A DNA stretch of 64,000 bases from Sulfurimonas sediminis (GTDB lineage: Bacteria; Campylobacterota; Campylobacteria; Campylobacterales; Sulfurimonadaceae): contig NZ_CP041235.1 of NCBI RefSeq assembly GCF_014905115.1, positions 2,232,001 to 2,296,000 on the forward strand, read 5' to 3'. Numbering within the stretch: the stretch's first letter is position 1; each line of letters opens with the position of its first letter. A program made the position numbers and the translations under genes. Of this stretch, positions 28,902 through 34,758 are shown one piece after another. The notes beneath the pieces are model-generated. The model did no database searches and was not told where the DNA came from. It saw only the letters and a list, made by a program, of their open reading frames with translations.

Positions 28902-30347
28902 TTATTTTGAGCCTAAAAGGACATTCTCTTTAGGAAAGACGAAGATTGTATGTCTCATTACAGAAATAAGTTTACTTGGCTTTCCGTCTTTATCCAAAGC
29001 ATATGCATGAATAGTAATAGGAATAATAGTATCCTTGCGTTTGTCATCAGCCAACATTTCTGTTGTTCTGAGTGTTACAATTTTTTTCTTTTTAACACCA
29101 GGAACCACTCTAAAAGGTTTTGACGGTTTTACTATTTGAATTTTCCCTTCCATTCCTTTTGGAGGAATAACTTCAAAGAAAAATTTCATTGGTTCGTTCT
29201 CAGTATTTTGCAATAAAAAGACATAAGAATTTTCAACTGCAAATTTATTATTTGCAAGATGTTTGACAGCATAAAGTCTTGTCTCTTTGTTGATATTTAA
29301 AAGCATATGCTCTTTCGTCGTACTCATATATCCAAGTGCGAACATAAGACCCACAAGTAAAACCATATATGCTATGATTTTTGGACGAAAATATTTTGTT
29401 TTTCCTTTTTTCTCAGCTATTTCATACTCACTTGACCATGTCACGAGTGATGGTTTTCCAAGTTTGCCCATAACTGTTGTACAGGCATCAACACATTCCA
29501 GACAGTTTATACATTCAAGTTGCAGTCCCTCACGAATATCGATGTGTGTAGGACAGACAGTGACACATTTTTCACATGTCGTACATTCGGCATTTGGCTC
29601 TACTGTTTGCAACTCTTTTTGTTTTTCAAATTTTTTATGGTGATGCTCGTCGTAGATATGTCCGCCTCTGTTAAAGTCATATATCGCCATAACTGTGTGT
29701 TCATCATAGAGTACTGACTGTACACGAGAGTATGGACAGACATAAATACAAAAATTTTCTTTTAAAAATACAATGTCATAAATCAAAAATGCTGCAATCC
29801 CTACAACAAAACCAATCATTGTCAAATGCTCTCCAGGATTGCTTAGATACTGGAAAAAGGTCTCCGGCGGGACAAAATACCACATAAAATCGGCTCCTGC
29901 AATCAATGCAAGCACTGTCCATATCATAATAGCGATCGCTTTTTTGACTTTGTTTTCAGGTTTTGACATATCCGGTTCTTGTTGCTTGTTTCCGATACGC
30001 TTGCGTAAATGCAATAACTTTGTTTCAATCAAGTCACGGTAAATGACACGAAACACAGTTTGCGGACATACCCATCCACAAAAAACACGACCACCTAAAA
30101 CTGTCATACCAAATATAGTAATAAAAAGAAGCATCAATAAAAATGGCATCAAATACAACTCTTGCATATCAAACTGCACAAAAGCAAGGTCCAGTTTCAT
30201 TTTGTCAAAACTCAATAAAAAGAAGTGGTGTCCATTGACTTTAATCCATGGCAGCACCAAAGCCACTATTGTCGCCAACGCATAAACATAATAGCGTTTA
30301 ATTCTCCAAGGGGTAGGTATCTCTATACTTTTTTTCTTTTCACTCAT
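28902..30347 (-). CDS. ccoG: Cytochrome cbb3 oxidase accessory protein CcoG (FixG/RdxA family)
   Basis: A 481-residue membrane Fe-S protein required for copper delivery during cbb3 oxidase assembly. Five or so transmembrane helices are seen, with motifs CGWVCPQTVFR and CIYVCPYSRVQSVLYDEHT. A ferredoxin region of two clusters follows (CTTCEKCVTVCPTHIDIREG, CINCLECVDAC), and the C-terminal ~120 residues form a periplasmic beta-rich domain. AAAGGAG supports ATG 30347. It begins 16 nt after the recombinase-like gene, so the two are probably co-transcribed. The oxidase genes themselves are not in the window. Confidence 0.93.
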   Translation of the reverse strand: MSEKKKSIEIPTPWRIKRYYVYALATIVALVLPWIKVNGHHFFLLSFDKMKLDLAFVQFDMQELYLMPFLLMLLFITIFGMTVLGGRVFCGWVCPQTVFRVIYRDLIETKLLHLRKRIGNKQQEPDMSKPENKVKKAIAIMIWTVLALIAGADFMWYFVPPETFFQYLSNPGEHLTMIGFVVGIAAFLIYDIVFLKENFCIYVCPYSRVQSVLYDEHTVMAIYDFNRGGHIYDEHHHKKFEKQKELQTVEPNAECTTCEKCVTVCPTHIDIREGLQLECINCLECVDACTTVMGKLGKPSLVTWSSEYEIAEKKGKTKYFRPKIIAYMVLLVGLMFALGYMSTTKEHMLLNINKETRLYAVKHLANNKFAVENSYVFLLQNTENEPMKFFFEVIPPKGMEGKIQIVKPSKPFRVVPGVKKKKIVTLRTTEMLADDKRKDTIIPITIHAYALDKDGKPSKLISVMRHTIFVFPKENVLLGSK

Positions 30348-30363: not shown

Positions 30364-30999
30364 TCATTCTGGACAAATGATAGTATTAATCACTTGTTCT
30401 TCTGCATTCTCTTTGGCTTCTGGTACTAATGAACCAAATGCAACCTGTTTTAACTCTCTTGATTCTATATAATCTTTTAACGAACTTCTACTTACATTTA
30501 AAAGCCGAGCCATAGAACTCACACTCTTTCCCTCTTTTAAATACTGTAAAATTTCGTTAATGTATTTATCAAATTTAGAGCTTGACCTACTCCCTTTGGG
30601 ACGACCAATCATTCGTTTTGCATCAGCTTGGATTTTTTGGCGCAACTGATCCATAAGGCCTAAAATCAACATTGCACTGCTCTCTTTGGACATTATAACG
30701 GAATGTTTAATAAAGTGTACTTTATAGTTATTTTTCATTAGGCAGCTTACCATCTGAATTAAATCTTCCATATTTGTACTCAAAACCCAAACATCATATA
30801 TCAACAGTATCGCTTCTTTTTTTGATTGGAAATAAGAGGTTACATTTGTACGTTTATCTAAGCGTTTATTTTGGGAAGTTTGATCTACAAATTCTTCATT
30901 TATTGTAATCTGCTTACTAAGAGCGTAGGCATTAATATGCTGTAATTGTTCATGTGCCGCAAGAAAATTTTTATCTGGGCGGATGTATGCTATTGTCAT
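30364..30999 (-). CDS. Serine-recombinase-like protein lacking catalytic Ser, with HTH; probable regulator
   Basis: About 211 residues. Residues 1-130 follow the resolvase/invertase fold (MTIAYIRPDK..., ILLIYDVWVLSTNMEDLIQMVSCLMKNNYKVHFI, AMLILGLMDQLRQ). The catalytic serine motif (Y-x-R-V-S) reads YIRPDK, so the nucleophile is missing, and the usual D-R-L-x-R motif is also lost. Residues ~135-190 contain IGRPKGSRSSSKFDKYINEI and an HTH (SVSSMARLLNVSRSSLKDYI). It should therefore bind DNA without recombining it. ATG 30999 is preferred to a longer frame from 31092 because a strong promoter lies inside that extension. It is followed by ccoG 16 nt later, so it may control that operon and itself. 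Confidence 0.7.
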   Translation of the reverse strand: MTIAYIRPDKNFLAAHEQLQHINAYALSKQITINEEFVDQTSQNKRLDKRTNVTSYFQSKKEAILLIYDVWVLSTNMEDLIQMVSCLMKNNYKVHFIKHSVIMSKESSAMLILGLMDQLRQKIQADAKRMIGRPKGSRSSSKFDKYINEILQYLKEGKSVSSMARLLNVSRSSLKDYIESRELKQVAFGSLVPEAKENAEEQVINTIICPE

Positions 31000-31038
31000 T
31001 CGACGATAAAACCTCACTATCTTTTTAATTTCATCGCC

Positions 31039-31095
31039 ATTATACTCTTTTTTGACGAACAAAGTCAATGATAAAATTGATTTTTTCGTCAAAAA
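31039..31095 (-). promoter_or_regulatory. Near-consensus sigma70 promoter nested in an inverted repeat
   Basis: On the minus strand, TTGACT (31063-31068) and TATAAT (31039-31044) are separated by 18 nt. Perfect inverted repeats TTTTTGACGAA (31049-31059) and TTCGTCAAAAA (31085-31095) lie in the spacer and upstream of the -35, so a dimer bound there would block RNA polymerase. This promoter drives the recombinase-like gene and ccoG. That the recombinase-like protein binds it is inference. Confidence 0.7.
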
Positions 31096-31111: not shown

Positions 31112-32311
31112 TTACCAGCCAATTCCAACCACCAGCATATAGCGTCTGTCTTCAATTTGTCCAATTGTCGAACCTAGCTGTTCTTGGTATGTTGCAGCCT
31201 GAAGTTTAAAAATTGCAAGCTGCATATCAAAACCTGCAGTATAAGAGCCTTTGTACAAGCCGCCGTTAAGAGTCATCATAAACCAGGAATTATCAACAAG
31301 CCCCAAACTGGCACCAATTCTTAAATGCTGCAAAAGTTCATACTCTATATTGGCATTGTCATATTGATCTTGGGAACGGTATGGGTTGTAGTTTCTCACT
31401 CTCATTTGTTGGGCGTTGAAAAGGTCTATATAGTCTACTCCTACTTTTAAATCATCAAACCATGGAATTTTCGGAGAAATGGAGACCCCGAGGTTTACCG
31501 ATAAAGGCTGTGCGCCATACGCATCTTCAAAATCAAGTGTGCCTATATTCATCACACTCAAGCCCACTGCCGGATTCCATTTTTCATTGTTAAATTCGTA
31601 TAAAAAGCCAACATCCAGTCCAAAACCAGAATTATCAACCTCATATGTATCTTGAAGATATTGTGCCAAATCATCTTTATTATTAACTACTTCGCCAAGA
31701 TCCAATCCAGCTTCATAAGATTTTTGTGTTATATATTTAGCAGTAACACCTACAGTTAAAGAACCGTCAAGCTTATTCCCAAGTAAGGGAAGTTTTATAC
31801 CCGTGTATTTTTTTGCACCTGATAAAAAAATCCCGCCATAGGCTCTGGAATGTGTCTCCAGCACTCCATTTGCACCACTGTTCGTATGTGGCATAAAGTT
31901 TGCATCTACTGCTGCCAAAATACCAAGTGAGTATGCTATGTCATTTTGTGTATGGTATGAGACAGAACTATAGTTAGAAGCAGAGGCATTAAAAGCATCC
32001 CCTGAATATTTATCCAAAGTATTAATAACCTCGCTATCTTTAGAATTACTCAAATCATCTATAAAAGTCTTTGTCTTTTCAGAAGAAGTGATACCCAAGC
32101 CTAAAAGTTCAACCTCAACACCATGACTTTTTTTAATTTTAATAAGCCCTGCAGGATTATAAAAAACAGCAGTGGAATAACCGCCAACGGCAGTATTTAC
32201 TCCGCCCATTCCCATAATACGGGGATCTTTATATAAAAAAGGCTGTATTGACATATCTGCATAAACCAATGTACTTAAAGCAATAAGTGATAATGATACT
32301 ATTTTTTTCAT
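31112..32311 (-). CDS. Outer-membrane beta-barrel protein (TraF_2/PorV-like)
   Basis: A 399-residue protein with a signal peptide (MKKIVSLSLIALSTLVYA). The next region, RIMGMGGVNTAVGGYSTAVFYNPAGL, is the opening of FadL/PorV/TraF_2-type outer-membrane barrels. Alternating strands run to a C-terminal aromatic-ending strand (YMLVVGIGW). Its function could be transport or surface attachment. It lies 13 nt after the lipoprotein gene upstream, so the pair probably forms one unit. It is one of two such barrels in the window; the other is the FadL-like protein at 51465. Confidence 0.7.
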   Translation of the reverse strand: MKKIVSLSLIALSTLVYADMSIQPFLYKDPRIMGMGGVNTAVGGYSTAVFYNPAGLIKIKKSHGVEVELLGLGITSSEKTKTFIDDLSNSKDSEVINTLDKYSGDAFNASASNYSSVSYHTQNDIAYSLGILAAVDANFMPHTNSGANGVLETHSRAYGGIFLSGAKKYTGIKLPLLGNKLDGSLTVGVTAKYITQKSYEAGLDLGEVVNNKDDLAQYLQDTYEVDNSGFGLDVGFLYEFNNEKWNPAVGLSVMNIGTLDFEDAYGAQPLSVNLGVSISPKIPWFDDLKVGVDYIDLFNAQQMRVRNYNPYRSQDQYDNANIEYELLQHLRIGASLGLVDNSWFMMTLNGGLYKGSYTAGFDMQLAIFKLQAATYQEQLGSTIGQIEDRRYMLVVGIGW

Positions 32312-33503: not shown

Positions 33504-34758
33504 CACCACAATCCTCTAAAAACTCAATTTTAATATTTGAGCGATAGAGTCATCCAAATCCCATCTATTGTTGATGAGTTGTTCTTGTATAGATTTTGCA
33601 CCATTAAGGTGTAAAATATTCAAAATCATACTTCTAAGAATAGTCATTAAAAATGGATTTAAATGACAATTATGAGCATCTTCTAAAAGTGAATTATCTT
33701 TGTATTGATGCATGGTTTCCACTTTCCAATGGTGTAAAATTTTATTGTGAAAGAATTCTGCACTTTCATGAAAATTTGCAATACAGAATTGAATTCTAGT
33801 GCTATTAGTAATCTCGCCAGTTTTATGATTTGTTGACTCTACTTTTTTTATAACTTTTATTATTGAGCGAATATGAGTTATGCCATTATGATAAAAAGTA
33901 GTTGGTTGATATACAAACACCTTCCTATTAATCCATTCATTAGATTGTTGGACAGGTTTAGCCTTGTAAATATTTGTCGGTTTTATATCTCTTGAAATTT
34001 CATCTATTTTATCAAGTAAGGTTTTTTGATTATCTTTTACCTTGGCAATATATTTTGAACCACTATTTTCGATAGCATCAAGAGTTTTTTTGGGTATTCA
34101 TTGCATCAAAAGTAAAGATAAATTCATCTCCCAATTCCCCTATCATAGCCTGAAGGGCAGGTATTTCATTCGACTTCTCTGCTATTTGTTGATGAGCAAT
34201 TATTACCCCTATCTCAGATAAAACAGCACCAACTACTTCTATTGATCTCTTATCTTTGTATTTGCTGCCATTCATAACCTTGCCATCTACGCTCAGGTGC
34301 TTTCCTCTTGTATCGACATAGGTTCTTATCCATTTCCTAAAAACAACTTCAACTTCTTGGCTATCAACTTTCGCTAACACATCAGAAACCAAACTTTTCT
34401 TTGGTGTTAATATAAACTCTACACCTAATAATCTTTTAACTTGTTCTTTTTGAATATGCTTCTCTATCCAAATAGATATTTGCTTATAGTCAGTTGCTCC
34501 CATCAATCCAGCCAATACTGAAAGATATAAAATATGTTCTAGTCGGTGTCTTTTACCTTGAGGTTTCCGATAGTCTGTCACCTCTGAAAACAATTTTAAA
34601 AGTTGATTTGATTGGGCTTGATCTGCATACCCTCTTATAGAACGCTTTTTCGCTAATTTTTCTCTTGTTTTTGTTGCCATATGTAATCACTTTAGTTTTT
34701 TAGAGTTCAAGCAATTATTGTTCTTCTTTTAAATTCCTGTTTTTTTAGGATTGGGGTG
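33504..34758 (-). mobile_element. ISAs1-family-like insertion sequence with target duplications
   Basis: An element of about 1255 bp. Its ends are inverted repeats: inward reading gives CACCACAATCCT on the left and CACCCCAATCCT on the right. Both ends are flanked by the same 9-bp direct repeat ATCCCAGAA (33495-33503 and 34759-34767), which marks a target duplication. The transposase resembles the ISAs1/H-repeat group but is frameshifted. The insertion lies between the lipoprotein gene and metH. The clear duplication suggests a fairly recent insertion. Confidence 0.75.
33516..34680 (-). pseudogene. Frameshifted ISAs1-family transposase
   Basis: The first part (200 residues from ATG 34680) is the typical N-terminal associated domain (LFSEVTDYRKPQGKRHRLEHIL) and the start of the catalytic domain (GKHLSVDGKVMNGSK, first Asp). 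It stops just after FTFDAMNTQ in a run of seven A (about 34086-34092 on the minus strand). If one A is removed, the frame continues as QKTLDAIENSGSKYIAKVKDNQ through to IAQILKLSF at 33516. The gene is therefore broken by one base, or rescued by slippage, or affected by a homopolymer sequencing error. The catalytic Asp-Asp-Glu layout otherwise appears complete. Confidence 0.8.

Follow-up and report, generated by a model that had tools for sequence, protein, structure and literature searches.

Recombinases are known to repress their own genes as a side effect, and the Tn3/gamma-delta resolvase (TnpR) and Sin are DNA-binding dimers able to shut a promoter when their site overlaps it. For example, Sin is reported to repress a promoter which its binding site overlaps (PMC2428073), and Tn3 resolvase is called a 'self-regulated repressor' in a reference title of another paper (PMC7157771). 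A recombinase fold which has lost recombination is described for MrpR (YopR) of phage SPbeta, now a repressor that binds a repeated element (PMC10516654). The accessible part of a review on domesticated mobile elements names serine invertases and Xre-type regulators, and within that part no serine-recombinase-derived regulator is named (PMC8987985). A search by title and abstract opening, with subscription papers and preprints outside its scope, gave no prior report of a serine-recombinase-derived regulator of ccoG.

Here, we analysed a 64,000-nucleotide stretch of Sulfurimonas sediminis DNA (the window), in which a gene for a resolvase-like protein, hereafter the pseudo-recombinase, is found beside ccoG. 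We propose, with a probability of roughly 0.8, that a chromosomal serine recombinase has been exapted in Campylobacterales as an autoregulating, non-cutting transcription regulator which controls ccoG together with a second operon. The likeness to the Tn3/gamma-delta resolvase and Sin lies in the fold and the domain order. In contrast to these two, which are active and have the catalytic Ser and Arg residues, the pseudo-recombinase has the Ser, D67, R68 and R71 positions replaced, no crossover site was seen, and the gene is chromosomal, vertically inherited and tied to ccoG. Its dyad of 39 bp is also longer than the res sites, which are 28, 34 and 25 bp. Whereas MrpR is derived from a tyrosine recombinase and controls a prophage, the pseudo-recombinase is derived from a serine recombinase and stands beside a host respiratory gene. 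The best NCBIfam match is the Mpi-family DNA invertase (NF009949; residues 1-184, E 4.4e-11), but it scores 42.8 bits where the cut-off is 272, the catalytic Ser is absent, and no invertible segment was seen.

The features of the locus are listed in Table 1. The original prediction had read the whole of 30364-31095 as the gene, of which only 30364-30999 is coding, the remainder being promoter. The reading-frame start TTG at 31092 is too early: homologues begin at the position of ATG 30999, and the TTG was rejected because the promoter elements are downstream of it. The protein is 100% identical to its nearest named record, which comes from a Sulfurimonas MAG. The resolvase fold and the C-terminal HTH, both proposed from pattern reading, were borne out. 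PF00239 matches residues 15-120 above the Pfam cut-off (E 1.1e-6), and the best Foldseek matches of the predicted structure are Tn3/gamma-delta resolvases (E 5.7e-7), with VIA Z scores of 12.8 and 12.2 against serine recombinases. The AlphaFold model (mean pLDDT 83, pTM 0.67), built on an alignment of 63 rows (the window protein and 62 of 80 loci, near-copies excluded), retains helix E and places the HTH helices at 144-155, 160-166 and 171-180; the HTH_7 match (E 5.8e-4) is below the Pfam cut-off.

Table 1. Features of the pseudo-recombinase-ccoG locus (positions in the window).
Feature	Position	Strand	Description and basis
ccoG	28902..30347	-	Downstream gene, same operon, 16-nt gap; TIGR02745 E 5.7e-138
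Pseudo-recombinase CDS	30364..30999	-	211 aa, ATG start; resolvase fold lacking the catalytic residues, then linker GRPKGSxSxSKFD, HTH and a C-terminal tail with Cys
Codon of Cys209	30373..30375	-	Clade-specific, C-terminal tail; coordinates computed
Codon of Cys86	30742..30744	-	Clade-specific; coordinates computed
Codon of Asp9	30973..30975	-	Place of nucleophilic Ser10 of resolvases; alignments, computed from ATG 30999
O2	31001..31039	-	Second 39-bp dyad-like site, from -10 box end to start codon; offset in relatives
-10 box TATAAT	31039..31044	-	Spacer 18
O1	31053..31091	-	39-bp dyad, TGACGA...TCGTCA, enclosing the -35 box; exactly 39 bp in 63/79 homologous upstreams
-35 box TTGACT	31063..31068	-	Inside O1

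The catalytic motifs are altered as had been predicted. Y-x-R-V-S reads YIRPDK, with D9 at the Ser position, and the D-R-L-G-R stretch, an instance of the predicted missing D-R-L-x-R motif, reads W-V-L-S-T, so that W71, V72 and T75 stand at the positions of the catalytic Asp67, Arg68 and Arg71; for these residues and Arg8 and Arg45 we assume the usual numbering of serine recombinases. Relatives were compared in a set of 47 proteins (a selection of 25 CcoG-linked rows, 8 of a second group and 14 ordinary relatives; the fragment L147 was excluded). The nucleophilic Ser of Y-x-R-x-S occurs in none of the 25 CcoG-linked rows and in all 14 ordinary relatives, which read Y-x-R-V-S, and the R68 and R71 positions are replaced in 25/25 CcoG-linked rows, as is the D67 position. 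No conserved Ser was found at or near the nucleophile position across the relatives: positions 8-10 vary freely in the CcoG-linked clade, and in a few members a single Ser stands one residue before the nucleophile position or two after it. Gln18 and Arg50 are invariant and Arg7 is kept in at least 90% of a 22-row alignment; in the profile of these 22 rows, which were drawn from 49 proteins, Arg50 aligns to R45 of gamma-delta resolvase. We take Arg7, Gln18 and Arg50 to be gamma-delta R8, Q19 and R45. Judged from these alignments, the nucleophile and most of the phosphate-binding residues are lost. The CcoG-linked rows form a single clade (support 100/99).

A second resolvase-fold group was also observed in family f9 (L048, L049, L131, L132, L133, L142, L135 and L140). 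With support of 100/100, its eight members group together and separately from the CcoG-linked clade, and most are without the catalytic Ser, with L131 keeping Y-x-R-x-S; N-V-F-G-R-T replaces D-R-L-G-R. Genes resembling rplI-hslV-hslU (named by eye) adjoin in 6 of the 8 loci. This group is possibly a second exaptation.

The original prediction had placed ccoG 16 nt downstream and raised the question whether the two genes always stay together; the gap and, by TIGR02745, the identity of CcoG were confirmed, and the homologues proved to be tied to ccoG almost universally rather than scattered. In the named scan, in which 80 loci were kept of 235 confirmed places, ccoG lies downstream on the same strand in 80/80. 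The gap is 52 nt or less in 76 of them, larger gaps being 82, 176 and 222 nt, and slight overlaps of the two genes occur in a few loci. An order-wide search of 198 genomes gave a strong group of 85 places, of which at least 78 have a verified ccoG link (G176 and G099 were left out of this check). At least 68 places are linked among the ccoG matches listed, three more (G000, G016 and G020) through their own loci, and seven (G155, G205, G212, G100, G171, G147 and G187) through sequence stretches, with ccoG cut by the contig end in G147 and G187. The genes of G123 and G167 lie at contig ends, and three exceptions have no intact ccoG adjoining: G097, where a broken ccoG-like stretch of 32% identity adjoins the gene and an intact ccoG is found elsewhere, G169, where no ccoG adjoins the pseudo-recombinase, and G075. 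The strong group is present in families f1, f2, f4, f5, f6, f7, f17, f18, f20 and f22, and in a sample of the phylum it was found at E <= 1e-25 in 28 of 150 genomes, all of the same order.

Separately, ccoG repeats of 1412-1440 bp with 98-100% identity were seen in G076, G093, G062, G189 and G145 (L171-L180), one copy being beside the pseudo-recombinase and the other elsewhere, at the ccoNOQP operon in G076, G062 and G189. These near-identical copies were considered as a sign of recombinase activity and set aside: the repeat is the ccoG gene alone, so homologous exchange explains the duplicates better, and they likely arose by gene conversion.

The inverted repeat noticed upstream of the gene is real, and it is conserved across species to an extent far above chance. 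Within the window alone, O1 is no more than chance would give, since 48 of 100 shuffles held at least one such match. Among 79 upstreams (the 80 loci minus one with a short upstream), TGACG...CGTCA spans 39 bp in 63, 38 bp in 3, 40 bp in 4 and 54 bp in 1, and a reversed-letter control was found in none of the 79; TGACG...CGTTA spans 39 bp in 35 loci and 40 bp in 8. Of the 63 TGACG...CGTCA dyads of 39 bp, 62 have a -10-like hexamer in the next 25 nt, and the starts of O1 and O2 are 52 bp apart in 30 of the 31 offsets found. The O2 arms in the window (TGGCGA/TCGTCG) are less exact than those of the relatives. Among 15 loci from other families, the dyad with exact arms is 38 bp long in 4 and 39 bp long in 4. 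Others have variant arms, for example TGGCGA with TCGCCA on both sides in L041, L183 and L184, and L037 and L038 are without the CGTCA arm; the dyad is recognisable even in families at about 30% protein identity. We looked by eye for particular HTH residues tied to the TGGCGA/TCGCCA variant and found no consistent rule. Directly upstream of the promoter, an outer-membrane TraF_2/PorV-like protein is encoded (31112-32311, minus strand), which adjoins the pseudo-recombinase in only part of the relatives.

No 39-bp operator was found near ccoG in 24/24 genomes without the pseudo-recombinase, nor upstream of ccoN (ccoNOQP) in the window's own genome. In that genome, the pattern TTGACTNNNNNCGTCA has 35 matches against 53 in the mirror control and is exact only at the own promoter, so these numbers do not point to a regulon. 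One-mismatch dyads are also fewer genome-wide than in the mirror control, and thus only conserved placement is informative. As a separate observation, a different AT-rich palindrome, TTATAATNATTATAA, stands upstream of ccoG in Sulfurimonas without the pseudo-recombinase (L254-L277); at least 13 of its 14 fixed letters plus N are present in 19/24, compared with 6% of simulated upstreams and 3/79 pseudo-recombinase upstreams. Another regulator may have taken over before ccoG in these genomes.

Of 14 Sulfurimonas genomes with the pseudo-recombinase, 10 carry a third operator elsewhere, whereas 0/5 Sulfurimonas genomes without it do. In G000, it reads TGACGATAAAACAAAATAAAAAATAGACTTAAGTCGTCA (C1:1422195-1422233). 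In each of the ten genomes, the site precedes the called start of a membrane protein of 64-80 aa by 88-118 nt; this gene is followed by an M48 peptidase (PF01435 2.6e-38 in the own genome) and, where the stretch is long enough, a prmC-like gene; this operon is unlinked to the pseudo-recombinase-ccoG locus. The operator also precedes the same small gene in G155, G227, G196 and G186, three of which belong to other genera (the small gene of G227 was read by eye from the DNA, the list of reading frames having given another frame). Among 27 M48 loci, five are from genomes with the pseudo-recombinase, of which two score 9/10, G009 has the left half and G020 and G041 have none; none of the 22 from genomes without it scores above 8, and no such site was found in them. 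On the M48 tree (36 rows), presence of the pseudo-recombinase needs 3 changes, which leaves few independent events behind its co-occurrence with the third operator. An independent-pairs test of this co-occurrence was set aside, the independent changes being too few. In G000, the likely -10 of the M48 operon, read by eye, is about 42 bp beyond the operator, and this position would suit activation.

Taken together, these observations suggest how the pseudo-recombinase could act. The resolvase-fold domain would be kept as a dimerisation module and the HTH would read DNA, the dimer binding the 39-bp dyad through the outer half-sites TGACGA/TCGTCA. O1 and O2, 52 bp or about five helical turns apart, would lie over the -35 box and over the region between the -10 box and the start codon. 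With the promoter covered in this way, RNA polymerase should be kept out by the bound dimers and the pseudo-recombinase-ccoG operon repressed; such occlusion by a resolvase-type protein is realistic because Sin over a promoter lowers expression. The third dyad, upstream of the operon for the small membrane protein and the M48 peptidase, may serve activation in Sulfurimonas and some sister genera. That the pseudo-recombinase is a regulator as such, which had been predicted, appears quite probable, with a conserved operator at its own promoter which is repeated at one other operon. The narrower prediction of a regulator of respiratory-oxidase assembly stands in part: it fits ccoG, but ccoNOQP in the window's own genome has no such operator upstream and the second predicted target is the M48 peptidase operon.

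Particularly, C86 and C209 are candidates for sensing residues. Both are present in 24 of 25 CcoG-linked rows and in 0 of 22 other proteins, the exception being L046, a divergent copy on a 3.1-kb contig. CcoG is reported to be a cupric reductase for the cbb3 oxidase, and its loss in C. jejuni cuts oxidase activity by about half (PMC8267372). The likely signal would be thiol redox state or copper, relieving repression, and copper is proposed because it fits the role of CcoG; perhaps the pseudo-recombinase is redox or copper responsive. From the distribution of the two residues, we consider the sensing role of the pair plausible, if somewhat short of an even chance. The full scheme, in which a two-cysteine redox or copper sensor represses the ccoG operon and activates the membrane-peptidase operon, and the same exaptation took place again in Arcobacteraceae-like genomes beside rplI-hslV-hslU, is doubtful; if true, dead serine recombinases would repeatedly have supplied their hosts with transcription factors. 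A serine recombinase which has lost catalysis, is maintained by selection across many bacterial families and is tied to ccoG, with conserved operators of its own, would in itself be a new origin of such factors and would offer a candidate controller of copper supply to the cbb3 oxidase. With the operators and cysteines defined, the proposal is directly testable.

Other explanations were weighed against this reading. The protein could still be a recombinase with an unusual active site, using Asp9 or another nucleophile and acting on the dyads, and the retained fold with helix E, together with Arg7, Gln18 and Arg50, would agree with this. We consider it very unlikely, because other residues stand at the D67, R68 and R71 positions, the clade shows no conservation at residues 8-10 and so keeps no alternative nucleophile there, and gene, promoter and ccoG stand in one orientation in 80/80 named loci with no inverted form seen. 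A decaying mobile-element relic which lies beside ccoG by chance would explain the lost catalytic residues and the distant relatives among plasmid recombinases (27 plasmid records, all below 60% identity; 28% identity). However, no match was found among 50,697 phage records, reading frames are intact in many species, and the clade is monophyletic with its own invariant residues. The median dN/dS (NG86) is 0.069 and the highest 0.12 over 36 pairs with 80-97% identity and dS < 1.6, taken from the window and 37 of the 80 loci (38 sequences, all 633 nt long, other lengths being excluded), whereas neutral evolution would give a value near 1. The pseudo-recombinase is thus no relic, and the chance of that explanation is negligible.

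It is improbable, to a lesser degree, that the 39-bp dyads belong to another transcription factor and that the pseudo-recombinase acts otherwise, for example by binding CcoG or as a nucleoid protein. The loss of gene and operators together in few events would allow this, but the dyads stand at the own promoter even where protein identity is about 30%, no part of the protein is more conserved than the HTH, and genomes which keep ccoG and the M48 operon without the pseudo-recombinase are also without the dyads.

Repeat and transposon-like sequences were also noticed. The string TGACGGGAAGTGGCTGAGAGGTAGCGACGTGAATGGTCA, which has no match within the window, occurs at many places in the G000 genome and is thus part of a multi-copy repeat. 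In the window, two reading frames at 33516-34680 (minus strand) resemble pieces of a broken DDE transposase: that at 33516-33920 has no Pfam match, and that at 34078-34680 matches DDE_Tnp_1_assoc (E 1.4e-16).
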